Shown here in pieces: positions 49,491 to 61,803 of a stretch of 64,000 bases of DNA. Positions within the stretch are counted from its first letter, which is position 1. The number at the start of each line of letters is the position of its first letter. Source of the DNA: Fimbriimonadaceae bacterium (GTDB taxonomy: Bacteria > Armatimonadota > Fimbriimonadia > Fimbriimonadales > Fimbriimonadaceae); contig JAMLGR010000003.1 of the NCBI GenBank assembly GCA_023957775.1, positions 124,001-188,000 on the forward strand. The letters are read 5' to 3'. The position numbers and the translations under genes are program-made. A model generated the notes under the pieces. The model was not told where the DNA came from, ran no database searches, and saw only the letters and a list, made by a program, of their open reading frames with translations.

Positions 49491-50258
49491 CTATCGGCGC
49501 CGTCTTCGGGCCAACAGCCCGAATCCGCCCAAGGCGAGCGCCAGCATCGACGCGGGCTCGGGAACGGCCGTGCCGACTCCGGTCTCGCCGGAGTAGGCCG
49601 CCCGGATCTGGAACTCGCTCGGGTCTCGCAGGGGGTCGTAGAGCGAGGGGATCCAACCGGCGGGCCGGTCGATGAAGTCGAGGTTGCCGCGCATCACGCC
49701 GGTTTGCCCGATCAACTGGTTCTGCTCGGCGATAGCCCCACCGACGATCGTGCCGACCCCTTCCAGGACGTAGGAGTCGTTGTTGTGGTAGCCGTACAGC
49801 GAGACGGCGTCGAGATCGATCGCCCAGAGCATCACCGGGGCCGCATAACCCGCACCCGGGATGGCGCCGAAGATCATCAGATCCGGGCCCGCGGGAGCGG
49901 CGCCGGTGCCGGTCAGGCTGACATCGATGATGCCGCCAGGCCCGACGTAAGGCGCATCCTGGCCGGTGAACATCACCTGGAGGACGAGATCGCCTCCAAA
50001 GATTCCGCCGGCGTCAAACACGGGAAACACGGGCGGCGCAGGCCAACCGGGCCAGTAGGCGGTGACCTCGTTGCCTCCCGGGCCGAAGGTCAAGGTGTCG
50101 GCAGCCACGCCGTTGGTCGCCCACTCGGGGGGCCCACCTGGCGGGTTGAAGGCGCCAAAGTTCAAATCGTGACCAGTGATGGTCGGCGTCAAAGGCGCGG
50201 CGCCCGAGAAGGCCGCACACGCCAACACCATCAAGCCAAAGCCTATCCTCTTCGTCAT
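49491..50258 (-). CDS. PEP-CTERM exported protein
   Basis: 255 residues. Signal peptide MTKRIGFGLMVLACAAFSGA; C-terminal sorting signal PEPASMLALALGGFGLLARR with a final arginine cluster, the PEP-CTERM tripartite signal processed by exosortase (EpsH) in diderms that make exopolysaccharide. The central part (VSLYGYHNNDSYVLEGVGTI) is beta-rich with no recognised domain. The start at 50258 follows a GGAGGG ribosome site. A TTACAAT element (~50328) is a plausible -10. Exosortase itself is not in the window. Confidence 0.88.
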   Translation of the reverse strand: MTKRIGFGLMVLACAAFSGAAPLTPTITGHDLNFGAFNPPGGPPEWATNGVAADTLTFGPGGNEVTAYWPGWPAPPVFPVFDAGGIFGGDLVLQVMFTGQDAPYVGPGGIIDVSLTGTGAAPAGPDLMIFGAIPGAGYAAPVMLWAIDLDAVSLYGYHNNDSYVLEGVGTIVGGAIAEQNQLIGQTGVMRGNLDFIDRPAGWIPSLYDPLRDPSEFQIRAAYSGETGVGTAVPEPASMLALALGGFGLLARRRRR

Positions 50259-50479
50259 CGTTCCCTCCTTCGGGAGATCCCAGCACTTACGCAAATCTTG
50301 CCTCCGCCCAACGGCAGAGGGCTCTATTGTAACACAACATGTACGTCTCGGCCAACTTTAGACATGAATCGTTCCAGTACCTTCGCAGGAATCTTCCCCG
50401 GGCCGAGGGTAGACTCCCCAACCTTCGGTCGGAACTTCCGCATCCCTCGCGGGAAACCGCTCGTCCTTTCTGCTAAGCC

Positions 50480-51813: not shown

Positions 51814-51827
51814 ACTTGGATAGCCCC

Positions 51828-53030
51828 ATGCGATCCCCGATCCCGCGCGCCATCGTCTGTTCCGTCCTGGCGGGATCCGTCTGCCTGGCCGGCGCCTTCG
51901 ATATCACGGCCAAACGCGGGGTCATCCTCGACGACGCCACGGGCAAGGTTCTCTGGGAGAAGGACGCGGACACCCCCGCCTTCCCCGCGAGCACGACGAA
52001 GATCATGACGGCGATGCTGCTCATCGAGCGCGCGAAGCCGGACGAGATCATCGTGGCGCCACCCGATACCGAGGAGGTCACCGGCTCGAGCATGCACCTT
52101 CGCCCCGGCGAGCGCGTGCGGGCGCGAGACCTGCTCTCCGCGATCCTCCTGCGCAGCGCCAACGACGGCGCCCACGCGGTGGCCGTGCACCTCGCGGGTT
52201 CCGATCTCGAATTCGCCAAGCTCATGAACGAGCGCGCGAAGGCGATCGGGTGTACGCACACGCACTTCCACAACCCGCACGGTCTGAACGACGACGAACA
52301 CACGGTCTCCGCGCGGGACCTCGGATTGATCGCGCGCGAGGCCATGAAGTACCCGGCCTTCCGGGAGGTGGTCAGCCATCGCGCCGTCACGATCGAGCGA
52401 AGCATGAATCTGGAGGACCGGGTCATGGTGAGCCGCAACAAGGCCCTCCGGCAAGACCCCACGATCGACGGCATCAAGACGGGCTACACCGTTCCCGCCG
52501 GGCACTGCTTCGTCGGCAGCGCGACGCGGGGCGGCCGGCGTGTGATTACGGTCATCCTCGACAGCGCGGATTGGCAGGAGGACAACCGGCAGATGCTGGA
52601 CTGGGCGTTCGCGCAAACGGAGCTTCGAGAGGTGGCCGGCCCCGGGACCACCGTGGGGCGCGTGGCCGTCGTCGGCGGCAACACGGCGACCGTCGCGGCC
52701 GCACCCCAACATCCCGTGGTGCACGCGGAGGCCAAAGGTTCGCTGCAGCCGGCCAGCATCCGCCTCCTTCCGCGAAACGAGTTGAGGGCCCCGATCCGAA
52801 AGGGCGACCTGCTGGGCCAGGCCGAGTTCCGAGACGCCGACGGCTTCATCCAGCACGTCCCGATCGTGGCGGCGGAGGATTTGAAGCGGCGCCCCTGGCT
52901 GCAGGCCCTGGCGGCGAACGTGGGTCCGTTTGCCCCCTGGATGGCCTTTGCCGGCGTCGCCGGGTATGCGGTGCGCAGGCGCCGCACCGTGCGGCGGAGC
53001 AAAAGCCGACGGAGCCAACATGCGCGGTAA
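51828..53030 (+). CDS. D-alanyl-D-alanine carboxypeptidase (PBP5/DacF type)
   Basis: 400 residues. Signal peptide (RAIVCSVLAGSVCLAGA), then the serine-peptidase S11 motifs: SxxK in FPASTTKIMTAMLL, SxN in LLRSANDGAHAVAVH and KTG in DGIKTGYTVPAGHCF. The C-terminal PBP5-like domain (VGRVAVVGG ... RKGDLLGQAEF) ends in a membrane helix (WMAFAGVAGYAVRRRR) that anchors the enzyme outside the membrane. It trims stem peptides. The start at ATG 51828 is preferred to a TTG at 51816. Neighbour order scpA-scpB-dac-rluB equals that of some Firmicutes. Confidence 0.94.
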   Translation: MRSPIPRAIVCSVLAGSVCLAGAFDITAKRGVILDDATGKVLWEKDADTPAFPASTTKIMTAMLLIERAKPDEIIVAPPDTEEVTGSSMHLRPGERVRARDLLSAILLRSANDGAHAVAVHLAGSDLEFAKLMNERAKAIGCTHTHFHNPHGLNDDEHTVSARDLGLIAREAMKYPAFREVVSHRAVTIERSMNLEDRVMVSRNKALRQDPTIDGIKTGYTVPAGHCFVGSATRGGRRVITVILDSADWQEDNRQMLDWAFAQTELREVAGPGTTVGRVAVVGGNTATVAAAPQHPVVHAEAKGSLQPASIRLLPRNELRAPIRKGDLLGQAEFRDADGFIQHVPIVAAEDLKRRPWLQALAANVGPFAPWMAFAGVAGYAVRRRRTVRRSKSRRSQHAR

Positions 53031-54804: not shown

Positions 54805-54833
54805 TTGCGCGCACCCCCGCACGGGCATACAAT
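54805..54833 (+). promoter_or_regulatory. Promoter TTGCGC-N17-TACAAT of the a2M cassette
   Basis: TTGCGC (54805-54810), a 17-base spacer and TACAAT (54828-54833). The only promoter in the window with a good -35 and correct spacing. The leader is ~57 bases and includes AGGGAGAG before the ATG at 54897. Confidence 0.6.
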
Positions 54834-54896
54834 CAGAGCAACGAAGGAGCGTCCCGCGCGTTCGATCTGCGGGATGGATTTCAGGGAGAGAGACTG

Positions 54897-56345
54897 ATGG
54901 GCACGATGCTTCCATGGGCTGCGCTTGCAACGGCGGTTGCAGCCTTTCTGACGCGCGACGGTTCCAATGCGACCGTGGCACCACCTGGGGAACCCTCCCC
55001 GTTTTGGAAGGCGATCGGCGCCGACAGGCCGAGTTGGATCTCCCTCGCCCTCTTCGCGGCGATCGCCGTGCTGGCCGGATGGAAGTTCGACACGGACGCC
55101 CCGGGAGCCCTCTCGGCGGGCCTCGGCGCGGCGCTCGGGTGCGTTCTGGCCGCTGCGGCCCGAACGGCCAGCGCGGCGCGGCCCGCGCCGACGGCGCTGC
55201 CCATCGTGCCCCTTGCGTTCGCGACGGCGGCGGTCGCCTTGGCGCCGCTCGTCCACGGCGGCACCTTGTCGCAGACGCATTTCGGGCTGTGTGTCGGTGC
55301 GGTGGCCGGCGCTTATCTCCTGGCGGCCGACTCTTGGGCCGTGCGCGCGTCCATCCTGGTGGTCCTGCTCGTGGCCGCGAACGAACTCGGCATGGCGAGC
55401 CGCGGCCAGAGCGTGGGGCAGACGGGCTCGGTGCTGGGTTTGGCCGCATCGGTCGGCGGCGTCCTTGCAAGCGCGGCCGCCGAACTCGTGCGGCGGCAAA
55501 GGGGCTCGGCCGGCGTCTCCACGCTCGGGGCGGGCTGGGGGATGGCGGCGCTGTTCGCCGGGGGATCGCTGCTGCTCGCGCAACGCTACCTCTACGTGCA
55601 GTCCGTCGGAAACCTCGCCGCCGCGTCGATCGGGGCGGCGCTCGTGGTGCACTGGCTCCTGGCGTCGCAAGAGAACGACGAATCCGGCTTTCGGTTCACC
55701 CTCGCCTCCGTCGTCTGGGTCGCCCTGGCCACGCTCGCGTTCGGCATCGATCGGGGCTTCGGCATGGCCGTCTCCCTTCTCGCCGCAGGCGCCATGCTGG
55801 TCGCTCTCGGCAACATCCGCGGACTGTTGAGCCTGGGCGCCGTCGCGGGTCTGGTCCTGTACCGCGTCTTCCGTGAGACCCACGCCGACACGTCGCGCGC
55901 CTTCGACATCGGGCAACACTACGCCATCATCGGGCTCCTTCTCGGAGTGCTGTTGCCGCTGGCCTTCGTCGCCTGGCTTCCCAAGGGCTCGGCTTCGAAG
56001 GGGAGGCTCGCCGCCGCGACGCTGCTTGCCGTCGTGCTGTTCCACGGCCTCGCGGTGGCCTCGGCCGTCTTCCTGGGAGCCAAAGGCGTGGTCGGACTGC
56101 TGGTCGGCCTCGGCCTGGCCGCCTTCGCCGAGGGGTTCCGAGGAGGAACGCGCCCGGCCGTGCTCGCCATGGGCGGGTCCGCTTGCGCCGCCCTCCTCGT
56201 CGGGTACGGCTGGCTCGGACCCTGGCTCGACCTCGCACGCGATGAGAAACTGCCCCTGCTCGGTTGGATCGCGGGCGTCGCCGTGGTCGCCGCCATCGTG
56301 ATCTTGCTTCTGGGCCGGCCCGAGAAAGAGGAGGCGGCTTCGTGA
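54897..56345 (+). CDS. Multi-pass membrane protein of a2M cassette, unknown family
   Basis: 482 residues with about 13 hydrophobic segments from ISLALFAAIAVLAGWKFDTD to the final GWIAGVAVVAAIVILLLGRP. It is Ala/Gly/Leu-rich with few charged loops. No transporter or enzyme motif is recognised. AGGGAGAG precedes the ATG. Its TGA overlaps the GTG of the alpha-2-macroglobulin gene (GTGA), so the two are coupled. Possible roles: membrane partner or assembly factor of the macroglobulin, inferred from context only. Confidence 0.7.
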   Translation: MGTMLPWAALATAVAAFLTRDGSNATVAPPGEPSPFWKAIGADRPSWISLALFAAIAVLAGWKFDTDAPGALSAGLGAALGCVLAAAARTASAARPAPTALPIVPLAFATAAVALAPLVHGGTLSQTHFGLCVGAVAGAYLLAADSWAVRASILVVLLVAANELGMASRGQSVGQTGSVLGLAASVGGVLASAAAELVRRQRGSAGVSTLGAGWGMAALFAGGSLLLAQRYLYVQSVGNLAAASIGAALVVHWLLASQENDESGFRFTLASVVWVALATLAFGIDRGFGMAVSLLAAGAMLVALGNIRGLLSLGAVAGLVLYRVFRETHADTSRAFDIGQHYAIIGLLLGVLLPLAFVAWLPKGSASKGRLAAATLLAVVLFHGLAVASAVFLGAKGVVGLLVGLGLAAFAEGFRGGTRPAVLAMGGSACAALLVGYGWLGPWLDLARDEKLPLLGWIAGVAVVAAIVILLLGRPEKEEAAS

Positions 56346-59300
56346 AGGCGACCCGAATCTGGAGTCTGCTTGCCGGTTCCCTGCTGTGCCTCTTCCTCCT
56401 CGCCCAAGGAGTGACCGAGGAGGTCCCGCTCGGAGGCGTCCAAGGGTTGGTCACTATGTCCGAGAACGGCCGCCCCCTCCCCGGCGCCACGGTCATGCTT
56501 CGCCCCGTGGTCGAGGCCGAGTACACCCGCATCCGATCCGCGGAGACCGATGCGGCCGGCGCCTTCCACCTGCGCAACCTGCCGGCCGGCGAGTACACGA
56601 TCGAGGCGTACGCGAAAGCCCACAGCCTCGGCGAGTCGCGCATCACGATCGCCGAGGGGGCGCCGACGGCCCTCCAGCTCGACCTCAAGCCCCAGGCGCC
56701 CCATCTCGACCTCTATGCGAGCCAGCGCGTCTTCACGCCCGCCGAAGAACCCCAGTTCGAGGCGCACGGCTTCGCCGAACTCGACGCGATCCAGGTCGAG
56801 GTGTTCTCGCTCGACATCCAGGCCGTCGCCAAGGAGGGGGGGATCGACGACGTCGTGTACGCCCTGGCCTACCCGGGCAACCGCGAGCCGAACCCTCTGG
56901 CCCGATTGGGAACGAAAGTCGCGACGTTCGACCATACGATCACGCGCCGCGACGGCGAGGGCGTGTTCATCGAGTACGTCAAGGTGCCCAAACTCGCGCC
57001 GGGGCTTTACTGGGTCCGCTGCACCGCCGGTCCGGCGCGCAAGGCGACCTTCCTGAACGTCACGTCGCTCTCCCTGGTGGCCAAAAGCGCCCGCGGCGAA
57101 GCCCTCTGCTTTGCCAGCGACATCGTCACCGGCCAGCCGCTTGCGGGCACGCAAGTGAGCTACCTGGGTGAAAACGGGCTCGTCGAAGGAGGCATCACCG
57201 GAGCCGACGGCATCGTCAAGTTCCCCTTGGCGGGCGCACCCAAGCAGGGCCGCACCGCGATGATCGCCTCGAGCGGCGCCTCGCGAGCCGTGGTCGGGTT
57301 CTACTCCGACGCCAATCCGGAGACCGCCACGCGCATCTTCATCTACACGGACCGGCCCGTATACCGCCCGGGCGACACGGTGAAGTTCAAGGGCATCGTG
57401 AGACGCCTCGAGGGGTTGAAGTACGCGATGGTGCCCCCCCAAACGGCCACCGCTTCCCTGATCGACTCCGAGGGCGCGGCGTTCAAAACGCTCGACCTGG
57501 CGGTGGATGCGCGCGGAACGTTCCACGGCGAGTTCTCCATCAGCGCCGAAGCGCGTCCGGCACCCATTTCGATGGAGGTCGCCGTCGGCGAGGCGACCAC
57601 CACCCAGTGGATTTCGGTCTCCGCGTACCGGAAACCCGAGTTCACCGTCGTGGTTGAACCCGAAAGGCCGTACTACGTGCGCGGAGACCGGGCGAAGATG
57701 ACCGTGAAGTGCGAGTACTACCATGGCGGCCCCGTCGTGGGCGCGAAGGTCAGCGCGAGCATCTCGAAGAGCCCCTACTGGTCGTACGCCCCCATGGATT
57801 CGGAGTCCGACGACGGGTCCGAGGACGCCTCCTACAGCGACTACGGCGAGTACGTGGACTCGGTGGACGCCACCACGGATGCCCGCGGGATCGCGGTGAT
57901 CTCGTTCCCGACGCGGCAGGACAACGAGCCGGAGACGCTTGAAAACGACCAGGTCTACAGCGTCCAGGCTTGGGTGGAAGCGCCTGGCGGCAAGTACTTC
58001 GACGGCAAGGGCGCGGTGCGCGTGACGCGCGGCGAGTTCGGCCTCGCAGTCCTGCTCGACGAGTACATCGCGACCTCCGGCCAGCCCGTGGTCGCGACGG
58101 TCCACGCCACTGCGCACCCCGACGACCGGCCTGTGGCCGGCCAATCCCTCTCCGTCCGCGTGGGCCGCGAGGATTGGAACGGCCGCGACGTGCGCTTCAT
58201 CGAGGAGCAGCGGATGGCCGTCACGACGGGAGCGGACGGCACCGCCCGGATCGAGTTCCGGCCCAAGCGCCCCGGCTCCACCGTCATCAAGGTGTCGGGC
58301 GACGACCGACGCGGCAACGAGGTGATCGCGAGCGAGTACGTGTGGGTCGAAGGCCCGGGTGCGGCGCCGTCCCGGCCGCTGCCGAAGGCGAACATCACCG
58401 TGCGCCTGGACAAGCCCAGCTACCACGTGGGCGACCGGGCGAAGGTGCTCCTGCGAACGAGTGAAAGCGGCGGCACGGCCCTGGTGACCGTCGAGGGCGA
58501 TCGCATCTACGCCTCCACGACCGTCGCGATCGAGAACGGGGCGGCCGTGGTCGACCTTCCAGTCGAAGCGGCCTTCGCGCCCAACGCGTTCGTCAGCGTC
58601 GCCTACGTGCACGGCAAACAATTCATGGAGGCGACGCGGCGGTTGGCGGTGAACCTGGATGCCCGCGTGCTTCAGGTCGACGTCCGGCCGGAGAAGTCCG
58701 TGGTCCAGCCGGGCGACACCGTCGCGTACACCATCACTACCAAGGACGATCGCGGCCAACCAGTGTCGGCCGACGTGTCCCTCGGAGTCGTGGACGAGGC
58801 CATCTACGCCATCGCGCCGGATACGACCAACATCGTCGAGGCGTTCTATCCCAAGCGGTACAACGCGGTCTCGACGGGATACTCCTTCCCCGAGGTGTAT
58901 CTCGACGGCGGAGACAAAGCGCCCAAGGACCTCAAGGTCCGCACCAAGTTCTTGGACACGGCGTACTGGAACCCCTCGGTCACCACGGACGCGGCGGGCA
59001 GCGCCGTCGTACGCGTGACCCTGCCCGACAACATCACCCAGTGGCGCGCCACCGCGGTCGCCGCGACCCAAGGCACCGCCGTCGGCATGGGATCGAGCAA
59101 GCTTCGGGCGCGCAAGCCGCTCATGGTTCGGCTCTCAGCGCCGGCGTTCCTCGTGCAGCGCGATCGACGGACGGTCACGGCCGTGGTGTCGAACGACACC
59201 GGGGCGGACGCCAAGGTGGAGATTGAGATCGCGTCGTCCGGCGTGGCCCTGGAAGGATCGCTTCGACGAACGCTCTCCATCAAGAACGGGGGGCAAGCCC

Positions 59301-60997
59301 AAGTGGCGCTCACCGCAGCGGCCCGTCAGACAGGGACCGCACGCATCACGGCGAAGGCCTGGATCGCCGGCGGGGCGATGGACGGCGTCGAAGCCACCCT
59401 TCCGGTCAAGGCGTTTGGGCGCGCGTTCGCCGAAAACCGCGCGGGTGAGATCGACGGCGTCGAGACGATTCCGTTCATCGTCAGGCCCGGCGCGGACCCC
59501 GGCACGGGACGGGTCGTCATCACGCTCTCGCCCACCCTCGCCGCCTCGATGCTCTCGAGCCTCGACTCGTTGATCGACTACCCCTACGGCTGCGTCGAGC
59601 AGACGATGAGCCGCTTCATGCCCGCACTGGTCGTCGACCAGACCGTCCGCGCCTTGGGTTTGCCCGCGCCTCCGCGACTCGCGGAGCTTCCTCGCATCAC
59701 GGCCGATTCCCTGACGCGGCTGGCCACGATGCAGCACGGCGACGGCGGTTGGGGCTGGTGGGAGAACGACGAATCGGACCCGGAGATGACGGCCTACGTG
59801 TTGGAGGGTCTCCACCGTGCCCGGGCGGCCGGTTTCGACACCCGCGGCCTGGAGATGCGCGCCCTCGATTGGGCCGTCCGCTCCTTCAAGCAGAACAACG
59901 CCCGCAGCTGGTCGCGCGCCCTTCGCCTGGCGCTCCTGGTGCAATTGGAGCAGTGGGGCCACAAGGAGTTCGCCCTCGCCCAGTTCGAGAGCGAGAATCT
60001 CCAGCAGGCCGATGCCCAGGAGCTGGCCTACGCGATCCAGTTCGCCCAAGCCGCGAGCCCGGACTTGGTGGACTCTTTAGTCAAGCGCTTGGTGGACAAG
60101 GCCTCGGGTTCGGGCTCGTTCGCGTGGTGGGAAGAGTCGCGCTACGGCCACGAGACCACGGCCATGGCGCTAGAAACGCTCGCAGCCGTGCGTCCGGCCC
60201 ATCCGCTGCTGCCCCGCGTCGTTCGGTGGCTGCTCGCCGAGCGGCGCGGCGACGGCTGGGTGAGCACCCGGGACACCGCGCACATTCTGCTGGCGCTGGC
60301 CCGCTACCTTCCGACCACCGGCGAGCTCACCGCGAAGGGTGCGATGCACGTGATCGTCAACGGCGCCCAGCGCACGACCGTTGCCCTGGATGCCAGCCTT
60401 GTGGTGGCGCCGCGCATCGAGATTCCCATTCGGGACCTTCGCGTCGGCGAGAACACGATCCGCCTGCAACGCGAAGGAGCGGGGCGCGCCTACTACACGT
60501 TCGAAGGCACGCAGACCGTGGCCACGGAGCGCCTCGGGATGTTGGTGAACGGTTCGGGCATCGAGGTCTCCAGGAGATACCTGCGATTGGAGCCGCGCCG
60601 GATGGAGGATGGCACGCTGAGGTTGGTGGACAGCGAACGCGCCGTCGATCGGGTTCAAGCGGGCGATGTCTTGACCGTCGAGGTCACCCTTCGGTCGCGC
60701 GAGGACCGCGAGTACATGCTCATCGAGGACCCGATCCCGAGCGGATTCCGGATCGTGGACCGTGGGGCGATCGACCCCTACGAGGAGTGGGTGTGGTGGT
60801 ACTCGCAGATGGACGCCTACGATGACCGCATGGCCGTGTTCGCCCGCCACCTTCCCCGCGGCACCCAGACGTTCCGGTACACGATCCGTGCCGAGAACGT
60901 CGGCATTGCCCACGCGCTGCCGTGCCGGGCCTTCGACATGTACCGCCCCGAGGTGTTCGGCTCGTCGTCGGAGACCGTCGTGGAGGTCCAGCGGTGA
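56342..60997 (+). CDS. Bacterial alpha-2-macroglobulin with thioester
   Basis: 1551 residues. N-terminal signal/anchor (ATRIWSLLAGSLLCLFLLA), a CnaB-like domain (GRPLPGATVMLRPVV), several MG domains (RIFIYTDRPVYRPGDTVKFK is the a2M signature), an acidic low-complexity stretch (SESDDGSEDASYSDYGEYVD, ~residues 480-500) that may be the bait region, the A2M domain ending WNPSVTTDAAGSAVVRVTLP, and the thioester motif YGCVEQT with Cys1084-Gln1087, then the thioester helical domain MQHGDGGWGWWENDESDPEM. It would trap proteases in the periplasm or at the surface. The anchor has no clear lipobox. The usual partner, pbpC, is absent. Confidence 0.93.
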   Translation: MKATRIWSLLAGSLLCLFLLAQGVTEEVPLGGVQGLVTMSENGRPLPGATVMLRPVVEAEYTRIRSAETDAAGAFHLRNLPAGEYTIEAYAKAHSLGESRITIAEGAPTALQLDLKPQAPHLDLYASQRVFTPAEEPQFEAHGFAELDAIQVEVFSLDIQAVAKEGGIDDVVYALAYPGNREPNPLARLGTKVATFDHTITRRDGEGVFIEYVKVPKLAPGLYWVRCTAGPARKATFLNVTSLSLVAKSARGEALCFASDIVTGQPLAGTQVSYLGENGLVEGGITGADGIVKFPLAGAPKQGRTAMIASSGASRAVVGFYSDANPETATRIFIYTDRPVYRPGDTVKFKGIVRRLEGLKYAMVPPQTATASLIDSEGAAFKTLDLAVDARGTFHGEFSISAEARPAPISMEVAVGEATTTQWISVSAYRKPEFTVVVEPERPYYVRGDRAKMTVKCEYYHGGPVVGAKVSASISKSPYWSYAPMDSESDDGSEDASYSDYGEYVDSVDATTDARGIAVISFPTRQDNEPETLENDQVYSVQAWVEAPGGKYFDGKGAVRVTRGEFGLAVLLDEYIATSGQPVVATVHATAHPDDRPVAGQSLSVRVGREDWNGRDVRFIEEQRMAVTTGADGTARIEFRPKRPGSTVIKVSGDDRRGNEVIASEYVWVEGPGAAPSRPLPKANITVRLDKPSYHVGDRAKVLLRTSESGGTALVTVEGDRIYASTTVAIENGAAVVDLPVEAAFAPNAFVSVAYVHGKQFMEATRRLAVNLDARVLQVDVRPEKSVVQPGDTVAYTITTKDDRGQPVSADVSLGVVDEAIYAIAPDTTNIVEAFYPKRYNAVSTGYSFPEVYLDGGDKAPKDLKVRTKFLDTAYWNPSVTTDAAGSAVVRVTLPDNITQWRATAVAATQGTAVGMGSSKLRARKPLMVRLSAPAFLVQRDRRTVTAVVSNDTGADAKVEIEIASSGVALEGSLRRTLSIKNGGQAQVALTAAARQTGTARITAKAWIAGGAMDGVEATLPVKAFGRAFAENRAGEIDGVETIPFIVRPGADPGTGRVVITLSPTLAASMLSSLDSLIDYPYGCVEQTMSRFMPALVVDQTVRALGLPAPPRLAELPRITADSLTRLATMQHGDGGWGWWENDESDPEMTAYVLEGLHRARAAGFDTRGLEMRALDWAVRSFKQNNARSWSRALRLALLVQLEQWGHKEFALAQFESENLQQADAQELAYAIQFAQAASPDLVDSLVKRLVDKASGSGSFAWWEESRYGHETTAMALETLAAVRPAHPLLPRVVRWLLAERRGDGWVSTRDTAHILLALARYLPTTGELTAKGAMHVIVNGAQRTTVALDASLVVAPRIEIPIRDLRVGENTIRLQREGAGRAYYTFEGTQTVATERLGMLVNGSGIEVSRRYLRLEPRRMEDGTLRLVDSERAVDRVQAGDVLTVEVTLRSREDREYMLIEDPIPSGFRIVDRGAIDPYEEWVWWYSQMDAYDDRMAVFARHLPRGTQTFRYTIRAENVGIAHALPCRAFDMYRPEVFGSSSETVVEVQR

Positions 60998-61803
60998 GGC
61001 GCGGCGTCAAGGTGCGCGCACAGCAACCCGGCGGTGAAGGGCGGCGCGCAAGCGCGCGCACTCCCACGTTGGTGGCGTTCGTGGTGGTGGCCGCCATCAC
61101 GGTGGCGGCGCTGGTCCAACTCCTTGCCACCCCGCCGCCGCGGCGTCTGATCGCGGCCTACTTCACCAGTCTCGACGGACGGACGGGCTCGCAGCGCCAC
61201 AACGCACACCTGGCCCTCGAACAACTCAACGGAACGGTGCTCGCGCCGGGCGCCGAGTTCTCGTTCAACCAGGTGGTGGGTTCGCTGTCGCGCGATCAGG
61301 GGTTTCGGCGCGCCCCGGTGAGCTACAACGGAACCTTGATCGACGATTGGGGCGGCGGCGTGTGCCAGACGTCGACGACGCTCTACAATGCGGCGATGTT
61401 GGCGGGGTTGGAGCTGGTCGAACGCCACCCGCACCGCTTTGCGCCGAGCTACGTGCCCGCGGGCCGCGACGCCGCCGTGGCCTTCAGCAGCGTGGACCTG
61501 CGGTTCCGCAACCCGTTCCCGTTCGCGGTCCGCCTGTCCGGCCGGATCGATGGAGACCGGCTCCTCATCGAGGTGTGGGGCAAGAAGATGCCCAAAGGGC
61601 GGCCCCAGATCGTCCAGGAGGTGCACGGCGTGCAGACCCCTGGGACGCTGGTCTTGGAGGGCCCTTCCCCACGCGTGCGCAACACGGGAAAGGCCGGGAG
61701 CGAAGTAGCGACCTACCGAGTGACCGGAGACCGGCGCGAACTGCTGTCTTTGGACAGCTACCCGGTGATGGACCGCGTAGTCGAGCGCCGGGACCGCCTC
61801 TAG
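60994..61803 (+). CDS. VanW family protein, membrane anchored
   Basis: 269 residues, GTG overlapping the a2M stop. A short basic cytoplasmic tail, one membrane helix (LVAFVVVAAITVAALVQLLA) and a VanW domain: LEQLNGTVLAPGAEFSFNQV, DWGGGVCQTSTTLYNAAMLA, DLRFRNPFPFAVRLSGRIDG. VanW proteins are envelope proteins, some linked to glycopeptide resistance or peptidoglycan, biochemical role unsettled. Codons 16-24 (RRASARTP) are an exact copy of the GGGAGTG repeat. Position after a2M suggests a shared envelope-defence role, which is inference. Confidence 0.88.
   Translation: MRRGVKVRAQQPGGEGRRASARTPTLVAFVVVAAITVAALVQLLATPPPRRLIAAYFTSLDGRTGSQRHNAHLALEQLNGTVLAPGAEFSFNQVVGSLSRDQGFRRAPVSYNGTLIDDWGGGVCQTSTTLYNAAMLAGLELVERHPHRFAPSYVPAGRDAAVAFSSVDLRFRNPFPFAVRLSGRIDGDRLLIEVWGKKMPKGRPQIVQEVHGVQTPGTLVLEGPSPRVRNTGKAGSEVATYRVTGDRRELLSLDSYPVMDRVVERRDRL
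61039..61065. repeat. GGGAGTG palindrome inside vanW (27 bases, exact copy)
   Basis: The reverse complement of 61039-61065 equals 6868-6894 base for base. It lies within the vanW reading frame, between the start codon and the membrane helix. Confidence 0.9.

Follow-up and report, generated by a model that had tools for sequence, protein, structure and literature searches.

A conserved gene trio of Armatimonadota links an alpha-2-macroglobulin and a VanW protein to a pyrophosphatase-related membrane protein without catalytic motifs

A three-gene cassette lies on the plus strand of a 64,000-nucleotide stretch of DNA (referred to as the window) from a Fimbriimonadaceae genome of 3.5 Mb and 27 contigs. 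It encodes, in this order, a membrane protein of 482 aa (54897-56345), a type I-like bacterial alpha-2-macroglobulin (a2M) of 1551 aa (56342-60997) and a VanW-domain protein of 269 aa that is a putative L,D-transpeptidase (60994-61803). Each junction is a 4-base overlap, GTGA at 56342-56345 between the membrane protein and a2M genes and again at 60994-60997 between the a2M and VanW genes, exactly as an earlier reading of the letters alone (the first-pass annotation) had described. Almost all related loci that could be assessed share this gene order, which is therefore not due to chance. Judged by profile comparison and predicted fold, the membrane protein is a relative of the membrane-integral pyrophosphatases (mPPases, the H+/Na+-PPases) devoid of their hydrolytic site, and we regard it as a pseudo-pyrophosphatase. 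Conservation of the trio across Armatimonadota suggests a little-known module of envelope protection.

Conservation of the gene order

Occurrence was counted in Armatimonadota, specifically in 85 genomes of the family Fimbriimonadaceae and in 291 genomes of the phylum. A gene-neighbourhood search for the membrane protein together with a2M and VanW, as proposed in the first-pass annotation, revealed that the trio recurs widely; far from being confined to one strain, it is found in the family and in distant families of the phylum. To the locus of the window were added 60 family loci, fetched from 59 of the other 60 positive genomes (G030, whose locus is split over contigs, was omitted). The membrane gene is located directly upstream of a2M on the same strand in all 59 assessable family loci, and VanW directly downstream of a2M in 49 of 51, the exceptions being L070 and L088. 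Of the 59 membrane gene/a2M junctions, 40 are four-base start-stop overlaps, as are 47 of the 49 where a2M and VanW are adjacent. Distant families of Armatimonadota display the same order and strand: among 23 loci outside the family, a2M adjoins the membrane gene in 21 of the 22 assessable ones and VanW follows a2M in 17 of 17. Loci counted as not assessable for a2M are L061 and L152, whose contigs end beside the membrane gene, and L089, which is the separate VanW piece of genome G038. For VanW they are the contigs that end inside a2M (seven in the family and three distant), L077, whose contig ends just past a2M, and L167, whose a2M is broken and runs off the contig. In L165 the membrane gene had been missed by the initial model and was entered by hand from its match to the membrane profile.

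Another 20 a2M loci, a non-random set picked by hand from a2M matches in genomes with a weak or no membrane-gene match, carry VanW in 18 cases and the membrane gene in 18, the latter judged with a membrane profile that had been iterated on a set containing these loci and whose E-values are accordingly inflated. The first round of this iteration had already returned the same number (101). At four of the 20 loci the a2M frame had been lengthened as far as an early start codon, so that the membrane gene was classed as 'other' by the automatic distance test; the coordinates show adjacency.

Joint presence and absence of the membrane and a2M genes

The a2M query matches 62 of the 85 family genomes, 60 with an orthologue and two (G015 and G023) with only a distant paralogue. 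The membrane profile also matches 62, reduced to 61 after removal of G021, a partial match (E 2.8e-4) that was not counted as positive. The presence/absence table, compiled by hand, contains 60 genomes with both the membrane gene and an a2M orthologue, one with the membrane gene alone, none with the orthologue alone and 24 with neither (Fisher P 2.8e-20, uncorrected for shared descent). The single genome with the membrane gene but no a2M orthologue is G052, in which the contig stops beside the membrane gene, and 22 of the 24 genomes with neither are listed as at least 90% complete. In six genera (g6, g11, g15, g19, g20 and g29) some genomes have the membrane gene and others do not. In five of these genera the a2M orthologue is present in every positive genome and in no negative one, the exception being g19, whose sole positive is G052. 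Since the orthologue tracks the membrane gene exactly in the five, the pair seems to have been gained or lost as a unit more than once.

Across the phylum the membrane profile matches 89 of 291 genomes, some of these matches being weak and partial, and the a2M query 233, a figure that includes paralogues and of which few neighbourhoods were inspected. The VanW domain is found in 84 of the 85 family genomes, most of which also encode a longer VanW protein of ~470 residues; the short operon-type VanW was recognised by its gene position, without a dedicated search of its own. A genome-collection scan with the membrane family produced 28 loci with Armatimonadota-type names except for L095 and L118, and these loci (L092-L119), partly duplicates of the genome assemblies above, were added to no count. 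L095 comes from a record titled Methanoregulaceae archaeon, the title or binning of which is probably wrong because the locus has a Fimbriimonadaceae-type trio.

Relationship of the membrane protein to membrane pyrophosphatases

For the membrane protein of the window, Pfam gave nothing above cut-off and NCBIfam no match at all; the first-pass annotation had placed it in no known family. A predicted structure gave a different picture. The AlphaFold2 model, built from 29 sequences (pLDDT 88.8, pTM 0.92), was compared with the PDB by Foldseek, and the 25 best matches were all membrane pyrophosphatases (best E 1.9e-5). VIA-align superposed the model on TmPPase with Z 33.5 and a root-mean-square deviation of 3.2 over 421 residues, the first unrelated entry having Z 9.8. 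Profile comparison points the same way. With hhalign, 96 membrane-protein sequences aligned with 30 Armatimonadota pyrophosphatases at probability 97.9 and P 5.5e-13 over 414 columns, the significant stretch pairing columns 7-422 of the membrane profile with 34-664 of the pyrophosphatases, and seven controls with reversed profiles or MurJ yielded P values of 0.087 to 0.56. Fold and profile thus identify the protein, previously without a family, as an mPPase relative. The 30 pyrophosphatases are the best PF03030 matches of the phylum, a set chosen after weak earlier results: the comparison with 18 Fimbriimonadaceae mPPases gave only P 0.0099, or P 0.0028 once an insertion of ~270 residues had been removed (reversed controls 0.22 and 0.38). 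Alignment in global mode was uninformative, and an hmmsearch of PDB sequences with the membrane alignment produced no more than two weak matches, both unrelated (E 0.015 and 0.026). The canonical mPPases of Fimbriimonadaceae have this insertion in mid-protein (residues ~411-681 in L217, G000:C1, minus strand), and the 18 reading frames extracted have lengths of 1073-1199 aa.

The resemblance stops at the catalytic centre. None of the four catalytic motif patterns was found in any of the 96 membrane-protein sequences, and all four are present in 18 of 18 family mPPases. The missing Asp/Lys motifs belong to transmembrane helices (TM) 5-6, 11-12 and 15-16 of mPPases, and large alignment gaps coincide with the catalytic stretches that follow TM5, TM11 and TM15; the gaps after TM5 and TM11 are inside the significant alignment, and that after TM15 appears only in a forced end-to-end version. 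Compared with mPPases (PF03030; TmPPase, VrPPase), the membrane protein is therefore alike in predicted fold and profile homology and unlike in length (482 aa against about 660-880 aa in the 30 compared), in the absence of catalytic motifs from 96 of 96 sequences and in the absence of a PF03030 match when it and six relatives were scanned with hmmscan. With the catalytic motifs gone, it is expected to have lost both pyrophosphate hydrolysis and pumping.

Assignments as a SEDS, Wzy/WaaL or MurJ-like protein were considered and rejected, since the fold search ranks mPPases first. A Wzy-like motif had been suspected from sequence only; the profile comparison covered MurJ, not FtsW/RodA or Wzy, and gave no match to MurJ (P 0.49), the 29 MurJ control sequences having been taken by position under PF03023 matches without individual checking.

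Topology and conserved residues of the membrane protein

About 16-17 predicted TM helices, rather than the ~13 counted in the first pass, were assigned by eye from the model and the mPPase alignment, with two long predicted helices each split into two spans. Lysine and arginine are distributed in agreement with the positive-inside rule, with means of 1.94 per loop in nine predicted cytosolic stretches and 1.11 in nine periplasmic ones, the loops differing in length. The predicted periplasmic TM16-17 loop, which carries R448 and K451, is an exception with 2.67.

Thirteen polar, aromatic or proline columns are conserved in at least 60% of the 96 sequences. Ten of them are situated in predicted periplasmic stretches (Y322, R323, R334, D337, Q340, H341, Y342, K396, R448 and K451), and P35, W253 and R474 are outside these. 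R323 is present in 93 of the 96 sequences, arginine or lysine at position 448 in 95 and lysine or arginine at position 451 in 94. The codons for Arg323-Tyr342 (55863-55922, plus strand) span the conserved TM12-13 stretch, predicted to be periplasmic, with R323, R334, D337, Q340, H341 and Y342. From this pattern we propose that the conserved site has been displaced to the predicted periplasmic mouth of the ancestral exit channel.

The alpha-2-macroglobulin and its thioester

The a2M of the window contains bMG10, A2M, A2M_BRD, MG2 and TED domains above cut-off, and its best-scoring solved relatives are the E. coli YfhM/ECAM entries. The thioester motif CVEQ occupies residues 1084-1087 with Cys1084 and Gln1087, in line with the statement of the first-pass annotation that the thioester is intact. 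CxEQ is kept in 89 of 92 long a2Ms, 87 recognised by pattern and two (L189 and L052) by reading, a count that excludes eight a2M pieces of at most 1400 residues. A simple lipobox pattern matches the N-termini of four of the 92, leaving 88 without it, that of the window among them. Some family genomes encode a second a2M (~1410-1470 aa) without the GCxEQ pattern, as in L235-L238, where the surroundings are different.

The VanW protein in place of PbpC

The third protein matches PF04294 (E 1.9e-45), and a cysteine with a following R..H is present in 86 of 86 VanW proteins examined, corresponding to Cys124 and His147 in the window. Its model consists of one N-terminal helix, the VanW core and a C-terminal part with a weak likeness to G5 (Z 4.8); fold comparison gave no convincing solved relative of the core (model residues 50-197), for which a relative may still exist. 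According to PMC12729407, two VanW proteins of C. difficile have L,D-transpeptidase activity and a Cys-His-small residue triad, and the same discovery is cited in PMC11986978. The cassette protein resembles LdtCd4/LdtCd5 of C. difficile in its VanW domain, N-terminal membrane helix and conserved Cys/His, and differs in that hmmscan reports no PG4 domain for the short cassette VanW, in the weakly G5-like C-terminal part and in being encoded with a2M. By analogy with these enzymes, it is a putative L,D-transpeptidase. YkuD-type enzymes were matched in 21 of the 31 genomes searched but not in that of the window (96.6% complete), and the two VanW proteins encoded there are for this reason its only recognised L,D-transpeptidase candidates.

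In PMC4498604 and PMC5764988, the idea that a bacterial a2M works together with a wall-repair enzyme rests on the a2M-pbpC gene pair, the products of which have been proposed to trap proteases and to repair wall damage. BiPBP_C, the PbpC-specific C-terminal domain, was above cut-off in 0 of the 85 family genomes, with E. coli and Caulobacter controls positive; sub-threshold matches were present in three (best E 8.6e-4). VanW adjoins a2M instead, in agreement with the replacement of pbpC noticed in the first pass. Like E. coli yfhM-pbpC (ECAM/PBP1c), the cassette combines in one operon a thioester a2M and a peptidoglycan-crosslinking enzyme, here a putative one. It differs in having VanW in place of PbpC, with no glycosyltransferase domain found, and an additional membrane protein of apparent pump descent, and whereas YfhM is named a lipoprotein in its entries, the 88 cassette a2Ms counted above have no lipobox-like motif by the simple pattern. 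An a2M encoded beside a membrane partner is also known from the Pseudomonas mag operon, in which MagB holds MagD at the inner membrane (PMC5764988); MagD, however, is a type II a2M without thioester, the operon comprises six genes (MagA-F) and MagB has one predicted TM helix.

A trap-and-repair model and its alternatives

We give about even chances to the reading that the trio is a periplasmic trap-and-repair module, phylum-wide in Armatimonadota and analogous to a2M-PbpC. The a2M would reside in the periplasm, its N-terminal hydrophobic segment serving as signal or anchor. A foreign or misdirected protease would cut the bait region, and the exposed thioester would capture the protease. VanW, anchored by its single N-terminal helix, would re-crosslink damaged peptidoglycan with 3-3 bonds through its Cys/His site and so do the job proposed for PbpC, the neighbour of the type I a2M of proteobacteria. 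The membrane protein would act as a platform, derived from an mPPase stripped of its cytosolic catalytic motifs and capable of neither hydrolysis nor pyrophosphate-driven pumping, whose periplasmic site may hold one or both of its partners, a2M and VanW, or else an anionic ligand that belongs to the wall or is lipid-linked. The first-pass annotation had suggested an alternative envelope-defence or wall-repair module; the L,D-transpeptidase activity of VanW-domain proteins in C. difficile is consistent with a wall-related role, and wall repair and defence are proposed functions. A more specific version, which we consider improbable, makes the membrane protein a new type of periplasm-facing receptor or enzyme. 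Its conserved basic cluster at the mouth of the ancestral exit channel (R323, K396, R448 and K451, with H341 and Y342) would bind the pyrophosphate or phosphate of undecaprenyl-linked wall precursors. The capture of proteases by a2M would thereby be tied to crosslinking by VanW as L,D-transpeptidase, and the protein would be a pump-derived sensor of wall damage.

Several observations weigh against a trap-and-repair module. The activities and interactions of the trio are predicted from sequence and model, and the periplasmic placement of the conserved residues is inferred from alignment to the mPPase topology and not from coordinates. The hosts are environmental bacteria in which an attacking protease is hypothetical, 24 of the 85 family genomes dispense with the module, and some VanW proteins are reported in PMC12729407 to have no L,D-transpeptidase activity. 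The a2Ms of L154, L166 and L190 are without CxEQ and still have the membrane and VanW genes alongside. The unit is also incomplete or dispersed in places: VanW is elsewhere in the genome in G038 (L088/L089) and 2.7 kb away from a2M in L070, a2M and VanW are adjacent with no membrane gene upstream in L188 (G173:C20), the membrane gene of L159 has no adjoining a2M, L186 has no adjoining VanW, and L191, with a longer a2M, has neither the membrane gene nor VanW alongside.

Other explanations were weighed against the same data. The trio could serve envelope biogenesis or quality control, with a2M restraining the cell's own periplasmic proteases and VanW building normal wall. The phylum-wide operon in mostly environmental genomes would suit this, as would the lack of any match of the three cassette proteins to the PADLOC defence library at E 0.01, but presence varies within genera, as would be expected of a stress or defence function that can be dispensed with rather than of core biogenesis, and we hold this explanation to be unlikely. 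Alternatively, VanW may be a peptidoglycan-binding protein or another cysteine enzyme, making the module a protease trap tethered to the wall. The VanW proteins without L,D-transpeptidase activity in PMC12729407 and the G5-like C-terminal domain suggested by weak fold matches speak for such a tether, and the invariant cysteine with its R..H, as expected for a catalytic site, argues against it; we judge it slightly less likely still.

Two further explanations concern the membrane protein. It might still conduct ions, be it as a gated channel or as a secondary transporter left over from the pump; a2M would then be its trigger, or it would couple the membrane potential to its periplasmic partners. 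Most mPPase helices align collinearly with it, and conserved residues are retained near the ancestral exit side; the catalytic motifs are gone, however, and D337, at the predicted periplasmic end, is the only acidic column conserved in at least 60% of the sequences, so that conduction appears quite doubtful. It might instead be a regulatory or structural pseudo-subunit of a heterodimer with a canonical mPPase, its operon position being secondary. The mPPases are homodimers (PMC10897367), and a canonical PF03030 protein occurs in 85 of 85 family genomes. Across the phylum, in contrast, 18 of 291 genomes have no PF03030 match and seven of these (G085, G086, G102, G105, G132, G269 and G276, six listed as 90-95% complete) have the membrane gene beside a2M, which makes a role as mPPase partner very improbable.

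A search of literature listings, with few subscription journals covered, gave no description of VanW beside a2M or of a2M in Armatimonadota, and we do not claim that none has been published. An operon of another phylum in which a thioester a2M is joined by a putative crosslinker of unrelated chemistry would constitute independent support for the idea drawn from the a2M-pbpC pair. That idea would become testable in cultivable Armatimonadota, and VanW-type L,D-transpeptidases would be linked to envelope protection. A large family of mPPase relatives without catalytic motifs lends itself, in addition, to the question of what the pump fold can do without the enzyme.

Promoter region and neighbouring genes

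The first-pass annotation placed the cassette behind one good promoter. The candidate at 54805-54833 (plus strand; TTGCGC, 17 nt, TACAAT) proved to be a weak sigma-70-like one, with 3/6 and 5/6 consensus matches counted by eye, and it was absent from the output of a consensus promoter scan. In L070 (G064:C1, 5189-7764, minus strand), genes for a BlaR1-type M56 peptidase and a BlaI/MecI-type repressor are located between a2M and VanW, a single case that hints at control of the operon by wall stress in this genome.

The third gene upstream of the trio (51816-53030, plus strand) encodes a Peptidase_S11 D,D-carboxypeptidase. D,D-carboxypeptidases supply the tetrapeptide donors required by L,D-transpeptidases. 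Further upstream, the protein encoded at 49491-50294 on the minus strand ends C-terminally in VPEPASMLALALGGFGLLARRRRR, which we take to resemble a PEP-CTERM sorting signal.

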